This document shows positions 6,668-18,272 of a stretch of DNA of 25,019 nt, in pieces. The translations under genes and the position numbers were made by a program. The stretch is from a virus, in the IMG/VR virus record IMGVR_UViG_3300020165_000141, positions 1 through 25,019 of that record; one strand, 5' to 3'. The notes under the pieces were generated by a model that saw nothing but the letters and a program-made list of their open reading frames with translations, had not been told where the DNA came from and searched no databases. Positions within the stretch are counted from its first letter, which is position 1; each line of letters starts with the position of its first letter.

Positions 6668-8284
6668 TTAAACTTGATCGATATCAGTAACGATAACTTT
6701 ACCATAGAATTCTGGACGAACCATCTTCTTAGCATAGCGTGTCATTACACCTTTACGTGGAGTAAAGTTCTTCGGATCATAAACCAATGGAGTCATAATC
6801 ATCGGTACATATGGAGCATAAACAGCACCAGTTTCTAAGAAATTACTTCCTCTGAAACCCATAAGGATGCTATTATCTAACATATAAGGATTCTTATAAA
6901 TCGTAAATCGGTTATTGATTGATCCAACTGCTTCAACACCCATTGAATAGGTTTTAGCAGATGCATCACCTGTATTCTGTAGATATCCTGTTACAGACTC
7001 TAAGATTGTTGCGGTTTCAGGAGAAACAACAGCAAAATTAGCACCACCACGTAGTGTTTTCTGATGGATAGCATTAGAAACAGATTGCATTTTGATACCT
7101 AATGTTTGAAACCATTGAGATTTCGTATAAGCATTAGAAGCACCACTTATCTGTGAAAAAGCACTAGCGCCTGTTCCGGAACCATCATACTCATATCCCA
7201 CCTTAGCGGACCAGTAGTTGGTTTTAGCAGCTGCATTAGCCTTTAACATATCGATTATTTCTAAATCAATTTCCATAGCGATATATTCACTTAACATAGC
7301 AGTTAATTCAGCTTCAGCATCAACAGAGTGATAAGCGTTAAGATCTTGAGCAAGCTCAGGAGTCCAAACAGCTTTCAACTTACGTGTCTTAGCAACGATA
7401 GCTTCACTCTTTAACTGAATGTCAATTTCTGGAATATCAATATCAGTTTCAGGATTAGCATCTATGTTAGCGGCTGTGGCTTCAAAATCACCACGGTTTG
7501 TAGCAACTGGCTGTTCATGATATCTTACACCAAACAACTGACCATCAGCTGCTGTAATTTTAGCAAAGAAACTAGCAGTTGTCTCTGCAGCATTTACACT
7601 AGAGTATGCTGGGAATGTAGCGGTTATACCTGAACCACTAAGTTCGAAAGCACGGATACCATTATAATCAGGTCTAGTAAGTCCACCTGTACCAACTTGA
7701 ACTTTTAATAGAGTTCCATCGGCTACGGAAGCACTTAAATCCGGCTCAAATTCTACTTCTTTCCAAGTAGCAGAACCTGTTGTCATTCCAAGAGGTGTTA
7801 TTCCTGTTAAGGATTTGTCGTTAATTGAATATCCAAATTTACCAGCACCATACAAACCACCACTAGCATCAGCGTTAGATGCAGAAGTATTACCAAATAC
7901 ATCTGTATTCTCTGTATGATTAGTTTGGTCTGCTGTACCATATTTGAAATCCAAAAAGAAAATTAGACCAGAAGGTAAGTTCATCGGCTGAACACTAACA
8001 AACTCTTGTGCTGATAATTCACCGAAGATTCTACGAACCAATGGTAAAGCAACACCAGACCATTCTTCTTTAGATCCACCAGTGCCTGTCTGTGACGCCT
8101 CTTTGATAAGCTGCGTAGCCTGGTTTTCTAAAAGAACAGCCATTCCTGTTTTCTTAGTGGAGTCATCGATTCCGTCTAACAATCCGGTTGGCTCCCATTT
8201 GCCGACTAATTTACGAGTCTGCTTTAGAAGCTCTTGATGAGGGTTATGACCACCCATCAAATCGTTTATTTTTAAATCTGACAT
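6668..8284 (-). CDS. Major capsid protein, gp23-like
   Basis: The protein has 538 residues, close to T4 gp23 (521). It forms the hexamers of the head shell with the HK97 fold. Residues about 78-118 (LPLVRRIFGELSAQEFVSVQ, then PMNLPSGLIFFLDFKYG) match the T4 region with MVRRAIPNL and GVQPMNSPTGQVFAL. The C-terminal part has ETGAVYAPYVPMIMTPLVYD and a TPRKGVMTRYAKKMVRPEFY block typical of this family. An N-terminal propeptide is expected: LIKE62-A63 matches the T4 site after FLTE65 in sequence type and position, so mature protein probably starts at Ala63. The start has GGGAG upstream and lies 15 bases after the scaffold stop. A strong terminator follows the stop. Confidence 0.95.
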   Translation of the reverse strand: MSDLKINDLMGGHNPHQELLKQTRKLVGKWEPTGLLDGIDDSTKKTGMAVLLENQATQLIKEASQTGTGGSKEEWSGVALPLVRRIFGELSAQEFVSVQPMNLPSGLIFFLDFKYGTADQTNHTENTDVFGNTSASNADASGGLYGAGKFGYSINDKSLTGITPLGMTTGSATWKEVEFEPDLSASVADGTLLKVQVGTGGLTRPDYNGIRAFELSGSGITATFPAYSSVNAAETTASFFAKITAADGQLFGVRYHEQPVATNRGDFEATAANIDANPETDIDIPEIDIQLKSEAIVAKTRKLKAVWTPELAQDLNAYHSVDAEAELTAMLSEYIAMEIDLEIIDMLKANAAAKTNYWSAKVGYEYDGSGTGASAFSQISGASNAYTKSQWFQTLGIKMQSVSNAIHQKTLRGGANFAVVSPETATILESVTGYLQNTGDASAKTYSMGVEAVGSINNRFTIYKNPYMLDNSILMGFRGSNFLETGAVYAPYVPMIMTPLVYDPKNFTPRKGVMTRYAKKMVRPEFYGKVIVTDIDQV

Positions 8285-8299
8285 TATATGTCTCCCAAT

Positions 8300-9382
8300 T
8301 TAAATAAGGTTAGCTAATTTCTTAAACCTATCTCTCAACTCAGTACTTTCAGAAATTACTTTCTTTTCAGACTTTGTTGAAGCAACCGGCTTAGAAGCGC
8401 TTCCCTTAGATTCATTAATATTATTTCTAACAGAAATGAAAGATTCACCAAGTGTGGAATAAACCAACTTGACTTCTCTTAGACTTCCTGCTCTGTCGAA
8501 TTGCTCAACGACTTTCATCTTCTGTTCATTGTTTAGACCATACTTACGGAACAACTTATTTGTAAATAATAGTTTAGCATTTAGCAGATTGACTTCATTT
8601 AGCTTTCCACGAAGTGTTTCGATTACGGAGCGATGTTCTTCAAGATCAGATTTAAGTTCTTTGACTTCATCTTTCTTTTCATCTTCATCTTCTTCCTCAG
8701 AAAGAGCTGCAAGAACTTCATCAAGATCGATATCTTCATCAACATCATCTTTGTCCTTATCCTCACCTTCTTTAAGTTTAGCACCTTGAGGATCTTCCTC
8801 ATCTTTATTAGAAGCTAGTTTTACACCAGTACCTTTACCGATGCCAGAAGAAGTAGATTGTTCATCCATATCATCTTTTTTATCTTTTTCTTCAGCTTCA
8901 TCTATTTCAGATTCTAACTCTTTGATTACAGATTCTAAATCAAGATCTTCATTTTTCTCATCTTCATCGTCTTTCATCATTTCATCTTTCATTTCATCTT
9001 CATCTTCTTCCTCAGAAACGACAGGTGCATACTTCACACCATTAATTTCAATGACACCTTCCATTTCCATTTCTTCTGAATCTTCATCAGATGGGTCCAT
9101 ATCGGCATCATCCATCTTAGCCATCTCATCTTTTGAATCTTCATCGGAAGGATCTTCATCAGCATCATACATCTTAGCCATTTCTTCCGGATCTTCGTCA
9201 GGCTCTTCCATCGCTTCCTTTTCCATCTCATCTTCATCTTCCATTTCTGTCTGAATCTTCTGTGATAGCATATTCTGTAAGCGTGGAGTAAAAGCCTCTT
9301 CTAAAGCCATCTTTGCGTTTTCTAAAGCAGTCTCACGAACAGCTTTTGCGTCAGCAATTGCGTCTTTTAAGAGATCATCCAT
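8300..9382 (-). CDS. Acidic prohead scaffold protein, gp22-like
   Basis: The protein has 360 residues and is extremely rich in Asp, Glu, Lys and Met in its middle (about 45-245), where a 19-residue unit is repeated. Residues about 250-310 form a conserved-looking helical part, VNLLNAKLLFTNKLFRKYGL followed by EQKMKVVEQFDRAGSLREVK, seen in scaffold proteins of T4-like marine phages as I recall them. The scaffold directs assembly of the capsid protein and is then degraded. Several Leu/Ile-x-Glu-Ala/Ser/Gly sites (ALEEA, INES, ISES, LKEG) fit digestion by the prohead protease. The gene directly precedes the capsid gene, as gp22 precedes gp23 in T4. A leader of about 120 bases with hairpins and a promoter-like motif precedes the ATG, which has AGGAG at an ideal distance. 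Confidence 0.87.
   Translation of the reverse strand: MDDLLKDAIADAKAVRETALENAKMALEEAFTPRLQNMLSQKIQTEMEDEDEMEKEAMEEPDEDPEEMAKMYDADEDPSDEDSKDEMAKMDDADMDPSDEDSEEMEMEGVIEINGVKYAPVVSEEEDEDEMKDEMMKDDEDEKNEDLDLESVIKELESEIDEAEEKDKKDDMDEQSTSSGIGKGTGVKLASNKDEEDPQGAKLKEGEDKDKDDVDEDIDLDEVLAALSEEEDEDEKKDEVKELKSDLEEHRSVIETLRGKLNEVNLLNAKLLFTNKLFRKYGLNNEQKMKVVEQFDRAGSLREVKLVYSTLGESFISVRNNINESKGSASKPVASTKSEKKVISESTELRDRFKKLANLI
9074..9187 (-). repeat. Tandem 19-codon repeat in the scaffold
   Basis: Residues 66-84 and 85-103 are a tandem duplication with the core EMAKM, DAD, DPSDEDS. The DNA is equally repetitive, so length variation between related phages is likely here. Confidence 0.8.
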
Positions 9383-9406
9383 TATTATTCTCCTATTTAG
9401 GATTTA

Positions 9407-9427
9407 GTATAGTTATTGGGAACTATA
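9407..9427 (-). promoter_or_regulatory. Candidate promoter element and small hairpin before the scaffold gene
   Basis: Positions 9407-9417 read AATAACTATAC on the minus strand, identical to the element before the gp13-like gene, and end 24 bases before the scaffold ATG. TATACT is a good -10 hexamer, but no -35 box is seen. The same bases form one arm of a 7-bp hairpin (9408-9414 with 9421-9427, 6-base loop). Whether it acts as a promoter, an RNA structure or both cannot be decided from the sequence. Confidence 0.4.
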
Positions 9428-9449
9428 ATAGAATTATTACATTTCGATT

Positions 9450-9478
9450 ACACCGTATGCGGTAGGAACGGTGTTTTT
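9450..9478. promoter_or_regulatory. Hairpin in the scaffold leader
   Basis: A 7-bp GC-containing stem (ACACCGT with ACGGTGT) encloses an 11-base loop between bS21 and the scaffold gene. On the plus strand it is followed by five T, so it resembles a terminator for antisense transcripts. On the coding minus strand there is no T tract, so there it would be a leader or processing structure. Confidence 0.4.
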
Positions 9479-9490
9479 AGTTTAGATATA

Positions 9491-9498
9491 TATAAATA
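9491..9498. promoter_or_regulatory. Intergenic TATAAATA motif, plus-strand orientation
   Basis: A perfect match to the T4 late-promoter box lies eight bases past the bS21 stop, but it points against the genes. The same motif recurs at 10520-10527 and 14530-14537, always in a gap between minus-strand genes. On the coding strand it reads TATTTATA. Function unknown. Confidence 0.3.
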
Positions 9499-9505
9499 TA
9501 AGAAA

Positions 9506-9733
9506 TTAAAATTTTCTTCCTCTTTGTCGTGAATCTTCCTCTGCAAGTTTAATTTTCTTCCAATGATTACGAGCCTTAGCCTTATTTTTCATCTCTTTTT
9601 TAATTTCGGACTTCTTTTTGTAAAACTCTCTTTCTCTCAACTCATACATCATACCTGAGTCTTTTACTTTTCTTTTAAAAATACTGATAGCTTTTTCGTA
9701 ATTATTATTCTTTACAATAACCTTTATTGACAT
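9506..9733 (-). CDS. rpsU: Phage-encoded ribosomal protein bS21
   Basis: The protein has 75 residues and is strongly basic. It follows the bS21 pattern along its length: a short beta strand (IKVIVKNNNYEKAISIFKRK), then VKDSGMMYELREREFYKK, which corresponds to the cellular RREFYEKP region, then a Lys/Arg-rich helix. E. coli S21 is 71 residues. Cellular bS21 sits by the 3' end of 16S rRNA near the anti-Shine-Dalgarno sequence and helps initiation. Phage copies are known from marine phages, and they are thought to replace the host protein and favour phage messages. Here the gene lies among head genes, one base after the previous stop, with AGAGG five bases before the ATG, so it would be made late with the virion proteins. 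It could also have a structural role, but nothing in the sequence points to one. Confidence 0.88.
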   Translation of the reverse strand: MSIKVIVKNNNYEKAISIFKRKVKDSGMMYELREREFYKKKSEIKKEMKNKAKARNHWKKIKLAEEDSRQRGRKF

Positions 9734-9734
9734 A

Positions 9735-10502
9735 TTAACCTCTATCTCTTAATTTAATCGCTGCAGCAATCTTTTTTGAAAGTTGTGCTTTTTTCTTTGG
9801 ATCTTTCGTCTTTAACTTCTGATCTCTCATTCTGTTTATAAGAATGTTTTGGTTGTATTTCAAACTTTTAGTGGAGGGATCATCTGCTTCATTTTTTGCT
9901 TTATAATTTCTATCCACATAATTATAAAAATCCTTTTCATCCTCTGGTTTTAATTCATCAGGTGAACTAATTCCAAATTTTTTCATAGCCTTCTTAAAAA
10001 ATTCTTTGTATCCATCATCCTCTTTAAACATCATATCCTTACTTTCATTAGCTTCACTATCCTCATCATCGTGACCAGGCACATGCTTTTCACCGATTGA
10101 ATAGTATCTACCCAAGATGTTTCCCATATCCTCATATAGTCCTGTCATTCTTTCTTGTAGTGAGTTAGCCTCTTGAGCAACCTTAGAGAACTGACCTGAA
10201 AGACCTTTAAGCTCTTTCATATTACGACTTACAGTAACCTTATCAAACATATCCTCAGTTTCGGATAACGTATGTTGAGCAGCACCCTCAGCAATAGATG
10301 ATAGTGACTCTGCCACTTCCTTTAGATTTCCGCTTCCGTATATGTTTTCGCCTATAGAATTATAGTTATTGATTTTCTCAACCAATTCATTAACATTTAC
10401 CTTTGGAGTATCATCCTCTTCCTTTAACCAAGGATTATTAGATACCATACCACCAGCGGTAGCTACTTCTTTTAGTAAATCTTTTAACTTTATGTTTGCC
10501 AT
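9735..10502 (-). CDS. Head-cluster protein with EFFKK-type C-terminal domain
   Basis: The protein has 255 residues and is not a family I can name. The first 20 residues (MANIKLKDLLKEVATAGG) look like the capsid-targeting leaders of T4 internal proteins, a short helix ending in Glu. The middle (about 60-140) is helical with a likely coiled coil. Residues 162-204 hold DGYKEFFKKAMKKFGISSPD and YNYVDRNYK, a small helical domain I recall in marine phage virion proteins. A SIAEG motif near residue 71 fits a prohead-protease site. The gene has AAGGAG before its ATG, follows a gap of 41 bases, and is coupled to bS21. A prohead core or internal head protein is the best guess. Confidence 0.6.
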   Translation of the reverse strand: MANIKLKDLLKEVATAGGMVSNNPWLKEEDDTPKVNVNELVEKINNYNSIGENIYGSGNLKEVAESLSSIAEGAAQHTLSETEDMFDKVTVSRNMKELKGLSGQFSKVAQEANSLQERMTGLYEDMGNILGRYYSIGEKHVPGHDDEDSEANESKDMMFKEDDGYKEFFKKAMKKFGISSPDELKPEDEKDFYNYVDRNYKAKNEADDPSTKSLKYNQNILINRMRDQKLKTKDPKKKAQLSKKIAAAIKLRDRG

Positions 10503-11617: not shown

Positions 11618-12223
11618 TTATCCTCTCAGTATATCATTAATTACCGATTCAACCTTACCATACTTTGAATCACGGACAGTTGAGTGTTCCACACTCTCAT
11701 TCATTCCGCCAGCAGGATACATAAAAGCACCATGCGTAGATGGATTGGATACGAAATCAAATGCAATCAATTCAAAATCATCCTGTACCTCACTAGCACC
11801 CTCAGTTACGGATTCAACCGAACCCATACCACGGGAGCTGATACCTAACTTAATACCGCTCTTAAATAATTCTTTTAGTATGTTACCGCTTGGAGTTGGT
11901 AGAACCTCTACAGTTCCAACCAAATCATCACCATTCCAATTCATCTCTGTAATATTATGTGATACATTGGCTAGGTTCACAACGGATGATTCAGGGTGAT
12001 CTAATTCACCCATAGCCCTTTTCTGATTAATAAAATTCTGAAAATACTTCTTAGCCTCACGCATTAGTATTTCTTTTGGGTATACCCTACCATTCTGATT
12101 TTTGGTGTCTGCTCTTTGGAGAACACCCTTAACAACTAACTTTCCGTTGTTCTCTTTCATAGCCTCACTTATTTGGTTAGGCTGTATTTCAAATGGTAGA
12201 TAATCTACTATTAGTTGTTTCAT
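11618..12223 (-). CDS. Prohead core protease, gp21-like
   Basis: The protein has 201 residues, close to T4 gp21 (212). This serine protease sits in the prohead core, cleaves the capsid protein, digests scaffold and core proteins, and finally itself. The family motifs are in order: NQNGRVYPKEIL (about 42-53), GELDHPES with the catalytic His76, GISSRGMGS with the nucleophile at Ser129 or Ser130, and FDFVSNPST with Asp156. Likely self-cleavage sites are ISE20-A and VTE-G near residue 141. The ATG directly follows the preceding stop. The gene stands upstream of scaffold and capsid as in T4, but five genes, including bS21, are inserted between. The cleavage specificity known for this family is what makes the linker motifs of the 1616-residue protein worth noting. 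Confidence 0.94.
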   Translation of the reverse strand: MKQLIVDYLPFEIQPNQISEAMKENNGKLVVKGVLQRADTKNQNGRVYPKEILMREAKKYFQNFINQKRAMGELDHPESSVVNLANVSHNITEMNWNGDDLVGTVEVLPTPSGNILKELFKSGIKLGISSRGMGSVESVTEGASEVQDDFELIAFDFVSNPSTHGAFMYPAGGMNESVEHSTVRDSKYGKVESVINDILRG

Positions 12224-14546: not shown

Positions 14547-16352
14547 TTAATTTTTGTTAGTATTAAGAGAAGAAACTTCTTCCTTATACTGTTGTTCTAA
14601 CTCATTTGACTCAGATAATAAAGATTTAGCACCATTACCTAAATGTTTATATAGGTTTTCGTAGTGAGCCTTAGCAATTCCACCATAAGCCTTCTTCTTA
14701 TCATGCGCTCCTAACGGATCTCTACCCCTTGCGCTACCATCCTTACTATATTTCTGAGCTTCTTTAGGACGACCAGCCCCATCGAACCCACCTTCGGGTG
14801 AACCACCATTATTATCCAACTCATGACCTGTTCTACCAGCCGCCATATCTGATGGTGTTCCTTGCGACTCACCGCTCTTAGCAGGATCATTACCCTCTGC
14901 CTCTATTTGAGAGCGTCTGAACTTATTCTTATAGTCAAAGATAATCTGTTCATCATTTTTCTTAATATCCTCATCAGTAAAACTAAATATATTCTTATAA
15001 ATCCATTCAGAAGATACCAAACCATCGCTTAACATAGATGATGCGAGAGATGTTTTGTTATTCCATAACTCTACTTTCTCCTGTTCGTATATCGTAGATG
15101 GATTTGTTAATCCTAAGTCAAAGTTTACAAGCTCTTGATCCCTAAATCCCTGCGCATATAGATGAACTACAGCAATCTTAGTCAATTCACTTACCACAAT
15201 CCTCTGTATTCTTTCTATTGTACGAGCAAATCTTACATCCTCAGCAGCTAATGTAGCCTTAGAGCCTAATCCTTCCTCATATCCTAAGAAAGCCTTTGGC
15301 ACTCTTAGAGATGCAAGTAATCTGTTCTTTAGATACTCAATATCATCAACAGCCTCATAGGTTAAACCAGCCATATTCTCAATATTAGTTCCACTATCCC
15401 CACCACGAACCGGTAAGAAAAAATCTTCCGTTAAATTCTGTATGTTATATCTAAGATTATAGTCACCTGTTTTTTCATCAATGACAGGAGCTTTCTTCAT
15501 CTTATTAATTACCTGTTGCATATAGTTATCAACTTCTGCTGGTGGTATATTACCAATGTCTAACTTAAATACCCTCTTTTCAGGTGCTCTCATAATTCTG
15601 TGAATCAACATAGCATCTTCCATAAGGGTTAATTGTTTCCAAACCTTTCTACCAGCCTCTAACATAGAACGACCATAGGGTACATAGTTAGAATCCGATA
15701 GTAATCTGAAATGAGCAACCTCATAATTCTCAAATGTTTGTGATTCTTGCTTTTGCATTGTGTGTCTATTACTATCTCCTTGGGGAGTTAACATAAATTG
15801 TACATTTTGTGGGTTGGATTCATCGTGATTTTCCAATCTAGCTACATCATATGCGGACATAGGAGTTACATTTACAATTCCATATTTCTCAGCAACTTCT
15901 AATTGTAAAAAAAAGTCACCATATTTGGTCATATTACGAATCCAAGGCCATAGATTAAATTCAATGTTAATTACATCATAAAAAAGGTTATGTAGCACAT
16001 CATATACCTGATTATTATCGGTTCTTATATCCAATACCTTACCATACTCATTCTTCATTGTCGATTCATCCGAATAGATATCTAATGCTGAAGCAACAAT
16101 TGAATCCGAATCCATTGTTTCATAATCCCTAAATAATCCCAAACGTAATTGCTGTGCATATAATTGGTCATTATAACCACCCTGCATCATATTTGAATAT
16201 AATTTTTGATACCTATCAACTAAGTTAGTCTGAACATTTGATTGTAACTGTCCTGTATCTACTATCTTTAGTTTTTTACCACCGATGTTTCTTACTATTG
16301 TATTAGTAGAAAATAATCGTTTTAGTCTTGAAAATATGTCTTTGTCAGCCAT
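14547..16352 (-). CDS. Portal protein, gp20-like
   Basis: The protein has 601 residues (T4 gp20 has 524). The portal is the 12-subunit ring at one head vertex through which DNA enters and leaves. The family signature RAPEKRVFKLDIGNIPPAEV (255-274) corresponds to T4 APERRVFYVDTGNMPA, and DYNLRYNIQNLTEDFFLPVR with the later LASLRVPKAFLGYEEGLGSK (346-365) match the wing and stem region, including the LRVP motif. The C-terminus from about 480 is Gly/Asp/Lys-rich and disordered-looking, with GHELDNNGGSPEGG, an extension I associate with marine relatives. LSE-S near residue 579 fits a prohead-protease site that would trim the end. The start has AAGGA upstream and lies ten bases after the terminase stop. 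Confidence 0.96.
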   Translation of the reverse strand: MADKDIFSRLKRLFSTNTIVRNIGGKKLKIVDTGQLQSNVQTNLVDRYQKLYSNMMQGGYNDQLYAQQLRLGLFRDYETMDSDSIVASALDIYSDESTMKNEYGKVLDIRTDNNQVYDVLHNLFYDVINIEFNLWPWIRNMTKYGDFFLQLEVAEKYGIVNVTPMSAYDVARLENHDESNPQNVQFMLTPQGDSNRHTMQKQESQTFENYEVAHFRLLSDSNYVPYGRSMLEAGRKVWKQLTLMEDAMLIHRIMRAPEKRVFKLDIGNIPPAEVDNYMQQVINKMKKAPVIDEKTGDYNLRYNIQNLTEDFFLPVRGGDSGTNIENMAGLTYEAVDDIEYLKNRLLASLRVPKAFLGYEEGLGSKATLAAEDVRFARTIERIQRIVVSELTKIAVVHLYAQGFRDQELVNFDLGLTNPSTIYEQEKVELWNNKTSLASSMLSDGLVSSEWIYKNIFSFTDEDIKKNDEQIIFDYKNKFRRSQIEAEGNDPAKSGESQGTPSDMAAGRTGHELDNNGGSPEGGFDGAGRPKEAQKYSKDGSARGRDPLGAHDKKKAYGGIAKAHYENLYKHLGNGAKSLLSESNELEQQYKEEVSSLNTNKN

Positions 16353-16362
16353 AATATTGTCC

Positions 16363-17934
16363 TTATTTAATTAACCAATCCAATGATTCTTTTTTACCTT
16401 TGACATCCCACTCCCAACTATTGTTCTCATTCGTTGGCTTTTGAGGGACCATCTGAGAAGAAACCCCACTCAAAGTCCTTCTCTGTAAATCTATACCCTC
16501 ATTCCTTAATCTTAATGCGGTATCCCTAACCCAAAGCGTAATAGCAAAGCTCATCACCAAATCATCGTTGTATCCCTGCATCGCTTCAGCTTTATTATTG
16601 TTATATATAAATACAAAAAGTTCATCAATTAATCTATTTGAACGAACAATAACAGATTTTTCTCTAAAATACTCTTCTAATTTAGCAACAACCAATGGTC
16701 TTGTTTTCATCGTCATACTAAATCCAGCCACCATATTTCTGTCTTGATTTCTGTATCGGTTTGTTATTTGATGTTGTGTATCCACATACTTTAAATCTTT
16801 GCTCATATAGAATAAATTTTCGTATCCTCTATCGATACATTGTTGAAGAGCCGCCCAACCTATATTATTATTTTCAACAACTAATAAGGCGTTGTTATAT
16901 TCTGTAGCGGTATTTACTAATAGGTTACCGAAGTCCTTTGTGGATATTTTCCCTTTATATTCTGCTACCTGCTCCATAGTTTCTACATCCATTATGTGAA
17001 ATGCAGAAAAATCCGAACCATCTCCCCTACTGACATCAGCACATAGTATATAATCCTTTGTATAGTTTGCTGGTTGCCATACCCAAAAACAGCTATCTAT
17101 ACCCCTTTTCTCTAATGGATTTTGAACGTGTGTTTGTCTGTATTCTTCCAATATAACACCATCAATTACATTCTGTCCAGAAGTTAGGAAGTCACAATCA
17201 CATTCTTGAGCAGCTAATGAAGGACCTAAGAGCCTATCCTGCTCCGTTCTCCATTCATCATCCCTTTCGGGATGCAAATTCCAATGAAGTTTAATAAAAT
17301 TCCAATCATTTGAACCATCCTCAGCACCAACCCAAGTCTTATGAAACCAATTACCTATACCATTCGGTGTTGATAGAGCAATACATTGTCCACCAGTAGA
17401 TAGTGTCTGTGAAGCAGCAGCCCATATCGGTTCAATCTTATCAATGAAAGCAGCCTCATCTAATATTAGCAGCGATAGTGCTTCTGAACGACCACTATCC
17501 TCACCGCTTGACACAGCTTTTACCTGTGAACCATTATTATACCTCAAAGATAATTTATTATCCTCTGTACATTTCTGTTTCAACCAACTCGGTAAGTTAG
17601 CGTGCATCACCCTAACCTTAGTAACTAAATTTTTAGCAGTATCTTGTTTAGTGGCAATCACTAATATATTCTTATCTGCATGAAATGTCATCATCCATAA
17701 CGAATATCCAGCAGTTAATGTTGATAAACCTAATTGTCTAGCCTTTAAAATGATATTAAACCTGTGTTCTTCAAAAGTTTGTAATGATTTTTCTTGATAC
17801 TCATATAGATGAAATGGTACTTTACCCTTTATTGGATGTTGAACTACACAATACTTCTTCATAAAGTATACGGGATCCTTAGCACACTTAACGTATTCTT
17901 TTTTTATTACTTCCTTTATCGGAGCTGGTTTCAT
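16363..17934 (-). CDS. Terminase large subunit, gp17-like
   Basis: The protein has 523 residues and is the ATPase and nuclease motor that packages DNA through the portal. Motor domain: a Q-type segment (LYEYQEKSL), Walker A ARQLGLST (65-72) and Walker B LLILDEAAFI (155-164), with LSTPNG (188-193) as the coupling motif. Nuclease domain of RNase H fold: CADVSRGDGSD with Asp300, VVENNN with Glu354, and NDDLVMS with Asp458. I chose the ATG at 17934 because it overlaps the preceding stop (TAATG) and the protein begins in family style (MKPAPIKEVIKKEYVKC); the 19 extra codons upstream fall in the previous gene. It is shorter than T4 gp17 (610). No small terminase subunit is recognisable nearby. Confidence 0.97.
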   Translation of the reverse strand: MKPAPIKEVIKKEYVKCAKDPVYFMKKYCVVQHPIKGKVPFHLYEYQEKSLQTFEEHRFNIILKARQLGLSTLTAGYSLWMMTFHADKNILVIATKQDTAKNLVTKVRVMHANLPSWLKQKCTEDNKLSLRYNNGSQVKAVSSGEDSGRSEALSLLILDEAAFIDKIEPIWAAASQTLSTGGQCIALSTPNGIGNWFHKTWVGAEDGSNDWNFIKLHWNLHPERDDEWRTEQDRLLGPSLAAQECDCDFLTSGQNVIDGVILEEYRQTHVQNPLEKRGIDSCFWVWQPANYTKDYILCADVSRGDGSDFSAFHIMDVETMEQVAEYKGKISTKDFGNLLVNTATEYNNALLVVENNNIGWAALQQCIDRGYENLFYMSKDLKYVDTQHQITNRYRNQDRNMVAGFSMTMKTRPLVVAKLEEYFREKSVIVRSNRLIDELFVFIYNNNKAEAMQGYNDDLVMSFAITLWVRDTALRLRNEGIDLQRRTLSGVSSQMVPQKPTNENNSWEWDVKGKKESLDWLIK

Positions 17935-18272
17935 TATATTTTTCCTAAAACAAATCCGGCTATCAACCAAATATAAGAGTTTTCGTACCACTTAGGTTTA
18001 ACTAACTCTACCATTTTCTCATTCATCTCATCACGAGCTTTTAGTAGATTAATCTGAGAATCCTTAGCAATAAGTAACAAAGAATCTACATTAGATTGTT
18101 CTTCCATTTTAAAAACTAATTCCTCACATATAGATAGAGATTCAGCTACCCTTTGACTATCTGCTTGCATCTGTTTTATGTTATTGGCAATCTGTAAATA
18201 TTCTTCTCTCGTAAAGGTTACATCTTGTGCAAATAAAGGAAATATTAATAATAAATACAAAAAATATTTCAT
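17934..18272 (-). CDS. Small exported/membrane protein with signal peptide, coiled coil and C-terminal membrane segment
   Basis: The protein has 112 residues from the ATG at 18272, four bases after the previous stop; a start further upstream would only read into that gene. MKYFLYLLLIFPLFAQDV is a clear signal sequence with a likely cleavage after FA. Residues about 20-90 are a helical coiled coil, and the end, NSYIWLIAGFVLGKI, is a membrane segment. A periplasmic helix tied to a membrane suggests a role in lysis (spanin-like) or in the cell envelope during infection, but the layout is not the classical Rz arrangement and there is no lipobox. The stop overlaps the terminase start. I do not recognise a family. 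Confidence 0.6.
   Translation of the reverse strand: MKYFLYLLLIFPLFAQDVTFTREEYLQIANNIKQMQADSQRVAESLSICEELVFKMEEQSNVDSLLLIAKDSQINLLKARDEMNEKMVELVKPKWYENSYIWLIAGFVLGKI

Follow-up and report, generated by a model that had tools for sequence, protein, structure and literature searches.

A covarying RNA leader at the putative scaffold gene, beside a conserved bS21 gene in the head cluster of T4-like phages

We found that the short gap between a phage-encoded bS21 gene and the putative scaffold gene of a T4-like myovirus contains a conserved structured RNA with compensatory helix changes, placed as a 5' leader of the scaffold gene. The DNA analyzed, referred to here as the window, is a stretch of 25,019 bases (positions 1 to 25,019 of IMG/VR record IMGVR_UViG_3300020165_000141). 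Among ribosomal proteins encoded by viruses, bS21 is the most common, and its benefit to the phage is unproven. An earlier, sequence-only reading of the window had drawn attention to the bS21 gene and said nothing of the 123 nt that separate it from the scaffold gene, where the covarying leader lies; of the two, the leader is the newer element and more worth following than bS21 itself. The explanation that we favor for the whole, at a probability of roughly 0.6, is that a selected head-cluster bS21 would be made late, swap with the host bS21 and favor Shine-Dalgarno (SD)-led phage mRNA, with a separate leader acting on the scaffold mRNA.

The bS21 gene and its head-cluster setting

The window covers the head region of the phage, and almost every gene lies on the minus strand. 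In the order of transcription, the genes for terminase, portal, several small products, a 267-aa protein and the Peptidase_S77 protease are followed by a DUF3008-like 66-aa gene, two conserved unknowns, bS21, the putative scaffold and the gp23 capsid gene:

16363-17991, minus strand: terminase
14547-16352, minus strand: T4 portal
11618-12223, minus strand: prohead protease, Peptidase_S77 (PF03420, 6.2e-30)
9735-10502, minus strand: conserved 255-aa protein, function unassigned, directly before bS21 and kept by relatives
9506-9733, minus strand: bS21 gene, 75 aa plus stop, ATG start
8300-9382, minus strand: putative scaffold, 360 aa, acidic, named from its position before gp23 and its acidic composition only
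6668-8284, minus strand: major capsid protein gp23 (PF07068, 1.2e-72)

The bS21 gene shares its strand with the head genes, its SD site (AGAGG) falls inside the 3' end of the preceding gene, and 123 nt separate it from the putative scaffold gene. Its placement among head genes, just before a scaffold-capsid unit, was thus borne out for the protease and gp23, the scaffold being recognized by position and acidity. Family searches gave no match for the putative scaffold or for the 255-aa protein.

The profile search named earlier as a possible refutation returned bS21 above the cut-offs of both Pfam PF01165 (residues 4-56 with E 2.7e-12 and 46.7 bits, the cut-off being 27) and the NCBIfam equivalog TIGR00030 (5.9e-11, 42 bits against 28.95). 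The open reading frame also matched PHROG 21469 "ribosomal protein S21" (1.2e-12, residues 1-67) and, in a PDB sequence search, bS21 chains (from 8e-7). The claim that the 75-residue product follows bS21 from end to end therefore holds as to the family and needs trimming as to the extent, since the last 8-19 residues fall beyond the profile matches. The predicted fold has three helices (mean pLDDT 81, pTM 0.37); Foldseek with this model gave mitoribosome chains in 13 of 15 rows, none with E < 0.001, and mitochondrial S21 was a weak match (best E 0.09). A strongly basic product encoded between two head-cluster genes might instead be a packaged protein or a basic assembly factor of the head and not ribosomal, and packaging of bS21 is raised as a possibility in passages of Chen et al. 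(2022; PMC9723584). We consider such a role improbable, as the bS21 profile scores stay over the curated cut-offs and bS21 lies away from head genes in other phages, e.g., HTVC008M (CobS, Hsp20).

A structured RNA leader of the scaffold gene

The gap at 9383-9505 (minus strand) holds a leader core of 76 nt, together with the following elements:

9491-9500, minus strand: TATATTTATA, late-promoter-like motif before the leader, a putative promoter
9400-9475, minus strand: structured 5' leader of the putative scaffold gene, match to leader model R1 (E 3.7e-10, the window being included in the model)
9450-9474, minus strand: hairpin H1, 7 bp (ACACCGT/ACGGTGT)
9408-9427, minus strand: hairpin H2, 7 bp (TATAGTT/AACTATA), loop CCCAAT
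9390-9394, minus strand: AGGAG site of the scaffold gene, which may pair with UCCU just upstream in the predicted fold

In relatives, the bS21-scaffold gap is mostly 121-164 nt long and contains, in this order, a TATATTTATA-like motif, two hairpins, UCC and an SD site. The motif, recognized by eye in most relatives, is weak alone (2 window matches where 0.72 are expected, as many being found in 14 of 100 shuffles). An extra hairpin between UCC and the SD site was seen by eye in the leaders of L111, L082, L094, L117, L119, L213, and L226.

For the covariation analysis, 31 distinct leaders were aligned with MAFFT. The 177 loci contained 82 distinct sequences, for which 50 representatives were picked, and the 31 were chosen among these; locus L088 and loci without a recognizable scaffold start, or with <135 nt before it, were excluded. 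In the helices, 99.8% of 418 cells are paired, and 13 of the 14 pairs have changed on both sides (63 such cells). None of 500 shuffles, a control that disregards relatedness, reached these values, and slid partners, a control that retains it, paired in 17-47%. RNAalifold, unaided, returned the identical 14 pairs. Folded by itself, the window leader has a minimum-energy structure with H1 and the SD hairpin (z -2.87), with H2 absent and a competing hairpin present; this fold, the compactness of the cluster and the opening of the gap directly after a gene would be in keeping with a mere terminator of the preceding gene block or a chance pair of hairpins. Such an origin is scarcely tenable in view of the covariation and the agreement of RNAalifold, and also because neither window hairpin has a T run after it and each record holds one strong copy, at the scaffold gene. 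An Rfam search of the window gave 0 matches above the gathering cut-off, the best weak match being freshwater-2 (15.8 vs 49.9 bits). A switch in which an upstream copy of an H2 arm would compete with H2 was also considered and rejected (mean longest helix 4.44 vs 4.69 in shuffled sequences, 50 leaders).

Distribution of the leader

Among the long records, the leader model found a single strong copy in each of G001, G002, G003, G005, G006, G008, G009, and G010, and one copy in G007, which has no bS21 (E 4.5e-5). There was no match to the model in G004 or in immuto, although two hairpins are visible by eye in the latter. Other matches in this search, Mel-JY01 and LR756508 apart, had E values of 0.48 or above. 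With the putative scaffold as query, the leader was present in 62 of 80 loci, many of these matches being close to the sequences used for building the model. The 18 leaderless loci comprise four that are truncated where the gene begins (L128, L131, L138, and L172) and the remote L189-L191 and L193-L203. Leaders located at the scaffold gene and not included in the model were those of L192 (E 0.0005), Mel-JY01 (0.006), LR756508 (0.013), and L041 (0.016). In HTVC008M, Mosig and Melnitz, the best leader match reached only E 0.19 and lay inside a gene.

A tie between the leader and bS21 was rejected: of the 17 scaffold-query loci that lack bS21, 15 carry the leader (the exceptions are L193 and L198), five of the 15 having served in building the model. 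At L088, where genes other than the scaffold come after bS21, the leader is absent. Since it also occurs in phages devoid of bS21, the leader belongs to the scaffold mRNA and not to bS21, and its occurrence irrespective of bS21 and of SD sites argues against action through the phage bS21. We found no published description of this RNA in the open-access literature, including passages of PMC2864571 and PMC3014915. Quite likely, it represents a type of cis-acting phage RNA not described before, occurring once in each genome where the scaffold-capsid mRNA begins. It would be shared by diverse myoviruses (SD-rich environmental phages, SD-less phages and one that infects Microcystis) and be recognized by a phage or ribosomal factor via the kept AAU-ended loop of H2; it may cooperate with the adjacent bS21 on late initiation without needing it. 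Its role is most likely to set the stability or controlled initiation of the scaffold-capsid mRNA. It would be a new handle on how the supply of scaffold and capsid is tuned in large phages.

Conservation of bS21 in the phage lineage

A bS21 protein scan of viral contigs yielded 40 loci, in which bS21 is conserved. With the protease as query, which is blind to bS21, the gene was found in 20 of the 20 loci with at least 4.5 kb downstream; these loci come from the best 80 of 588 relatives and are not a broad sample. The scaffold query gave 65 of 80 loci with at least 800 nt upstream, in which bS21 is adjacent on the same strand (38), in the same orientation at a distance of about 525 nt (3), on the opposite strand (7) or absent (17). 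The median dN/dS of bS21 is about 0.10 (12 distinct close sequences forming 66 pairs, of which the 45 with a usable dS were counted). Its start codon is ATG near the window; several loci at greater distance seem to start with TTG or GTG. On a capsid-protein tree (66 rows from 152 candidates), the presence of bS21 needs three changes, and a single 50-row clade carries the gene in every row. In the huge-phage record LR756508, bS21 also immediately precedes the scaffold-capsid pair. These comparisons indicate that bS21 is a fixed gene of the lineage, under strong purifying selection. The lineage offers a comparison: among sister phages whose head genes and leader are the same, some carry bS21 and others do not.

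A bS21 scan of genome contigs returned two contigs only, both of the same phage group. Contigs L121, L316, and L122 of this group, which carry the leader and bS21, are binned in Flavobacteriales (two contigs) and archaeal (one) MAGs and represent either misbinning or infected cells. As for other translation genes, the 164.8-kb relative G001 encodes a tmRNA (L280, 9378-9797; Rfam RF00023, 85.7 bits) and a tRNA-Gly. The predicted tag of this tmRNA, VNDEPTYAYAA, differs from the Bacteroidia tags examined, and comparison with 198 Bacteroidia genomes gave only matches of ~30 nt, in 4 of them, which name no host. G007 (L306-L308), with neither bS21 nor SD sites, has a tmRNA and >30 tRNA genes in about 60 kb.

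Shine-Dalgarno sites

SD sites were defined by a duplex energy with the 16S tail of <= -4.5 kcal/mol, the mechanical choice of ORF starts blurring all groups. By this measure, SD-like sites precede 14 of the 21 window genes, compared with a fraction of 0.24 for 532 internal ATGs. The SD fraction is 0.40 to 0.91 in bS21-bearing relatives of the same head group and 0.00 to 0.27 in the bS21-less immuto, L176, L178, L180, L182, L183, L187, and L192. Exceptions exist on both sides, i.e., LR756508 (0.12), L189 (0.13) and L199 (0.00) with bS21 and L193 (0.38) without it; the SD-poor rows with bS21 are LR756508, L189, L195, L199, and L204 (5 genes only). Among the long bS21-bearing records, the fraction is 0.63 of 115 genes in G001, 0.46 of 182 in G003, 0.57 of 117 in G006 and 0.46 of 87 in G005, versus 0.10 of 87 genes in the bS21-less G007. 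A causal link between bS21 and SD use found no support (sign test p = 1, with 2 independent pairs when starred branches alone are counted and 3 when all are).

Taken per 20-kb piece on the coding strand, SD fractions range over 0.50-0.81 in G001, 0.20-0.91 in G003 and 0.30-0.85 in G006; in G005, the first 40 kb (0-40 kb, L309-L310) are SD-poor (0.33 and 0.13) beside an SD-rich remainder. Strong AGGAG-like sites of late genes had been put forward as fitting bS21 action; SD-led genes do prevail in the window, but the relatives use SD sites genome-wide and the sign test gives that argument no backing. As SD sites extend over most sampled 20-kb segments and not late genes alone, their simplest reading is the initiation habit of the host, which is thus probably SD-using; this argues against a Bacteroidetes host.

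Residue 54 and the proposed action of phage bS21

In the profile alignment, the window bS21 has Ala54, and its near relatives have Ala, Leu, Ile, Val, or Met; the column was equated with Tyr54 through PDB chain 9i5v_9, in whose printed alignment Tyr is residue 54. Among 29 distinct chromosomal Bacteroidia bS21 sequences, 24 have Tyr, one His and one Arg, and three do not reach the column. Tyr also occurs in phage loci L195, L196, L197, L199-L201, and L203, the same seven in which bS21 lies on the opposite strand, and these look like the type described by Chen et al. The split is imperfect, as L041 has Tyr and L158 His with the strand the same or unchecked. In the window protein, His57 and Trp58 sit near Ala54 and may provide an aromatic contact at a shifted position.

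In Flavobacterium, bS21 helps to mask the anti-SD, and Y54A ribosomes are better at translating an SD-led mRNA (passages of McNutt et al., 2023; PMC9976891). By extension, a Bacteroidia host might hide its anti-SD via Tyr54 of its bS21, and a phage protein with Ala54 might replace it and thereby enable the SD-led phage genes. The Y54A result, the Tyr in 24 of the 29 Bacteroidia sequences, the SD-poor Bacteroidia genes (0.16 of 128 in pooled loci) and the two SD-rich contigs of the phage group (0.63 and 0.44) in a Flavobacteriales MAG speak for such unlocking. Yet SD sites occur genome-wide, and early genes could then not be read until bS21 had been made; the predicted restriction of SD use to late genes was not found in the 20-kb pieces of G001, G003, and G006. 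Furthermore, the Flavobacterium relative immuto has neither SD sites nor bS21, and binning of phage contigs is weak evidence of host, another contig of the group being in an archaeal MAG. We regard this scenario as very improbable.

Late replacement on the ribosome is plausible and, as ribosome takeover, had been proposed for phage bS21 in the earlier reading and in the literature (passages of PMC9723584 and PMC6375957). As bS21 shares its strand with the head genes, its product should appear with the head proteins, late. It would then exchange with the loosely held host bS21 on the 30S platform, beside the 16S 3' end, and the resulting ribosomes may start well on the abundant SD-led phage mRNA. 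Observed are the family, its conservation, selection and position, the lack of a Bacteroidia-type aromatic residue 54 and the SD-rich genes. Against this reading stand the sister phages that manage without bS21 (17 of 65 scaffold loci), the drop of E. coli translation to about 5% with the HTVC008M bS21, the genome-wide SD use, which shows no particular tie to late genes, and the weak structural matches of the predicted fold. Homologues of bS21 alter gene expression in another bacterium (passages of PMC9578407), which makes ribosome tuning a reasonable idea, without proving it for the window bS21. Alternatively, the phage copy would merely top up bS21 lost from stressed or new ribosomes, with no choice of mRNA. 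Neither purifying selection nor the wide placement among head genes requires selectivity, and relatives have further translation parts, e.g., tmRNA and tRNAs; on the other hand, the conserved late-gene position suggests that timing matters, and loss of bS21 in sister phages would be unexplained. We consider this supply role possible but unlikely, and retain late replacement as the preferred reading.

Comparison with known systems

RNA structures in the initiation region are described for T4 genes e and soc in passages of the review PMC3014915, and they resemble the leader in being 5' structures near an initiation site with a late promoter close by. The T4 structures lie at other genes, and the gene e late transcript loses the 5' half of its structure, whereas in the window the promoter-like motif precedes both hairpins.

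HTVC008M, a marine T4-like phage of Pelagibacter, likewise encodes a bS21, which was incorporated into Escherichia coli 70S ribosomes, E. coli translation falling to about 5% with it (passages of Mizuno et al., 2019; PMC6375957). Unlike that of the window, its gene adjoins CobS and Hsp20 genes, outside the head block, and no leader match above chance was found in this phage. The closest isolate is the Microcystis phage Mel-JY01 (PP395634; terminase 57%, capsid 51.5%), which, like the window, has RpsU (bS21) between protease and capsid on the same strand. It differs in having three genes between bS21 and the capsid gene, with bS21 not beside the scaffold, and its sequence is distant.

According to passages of Chen et al. 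(2022; PMC9723584), a prohead protease lies within ten genes of bS21 in 310 of 900 published bS21 phages, and in freshwater Bacteroidetes phages the bS21 gene lies within the head block and is encoded on the other strand; residue 54 is aromatic in all 61 of these bS21, and the gene is co-expressed with late genes. A phage bS21 next to head genes and expressed late was therefore already published, and the window bS21 is of a known kind. Both are myovirus proteins, constrained in sequence, encoded inside a terminase-portal-protease-capsid block and proposed to be used late. In contrast to these phages, with their opposite strand, aromatic residue 54 and SD-poor hosts, the window combines a same-strand bS21, Ala54 and SD-rich genes, and in the window bS21 is followed by the structured leader.
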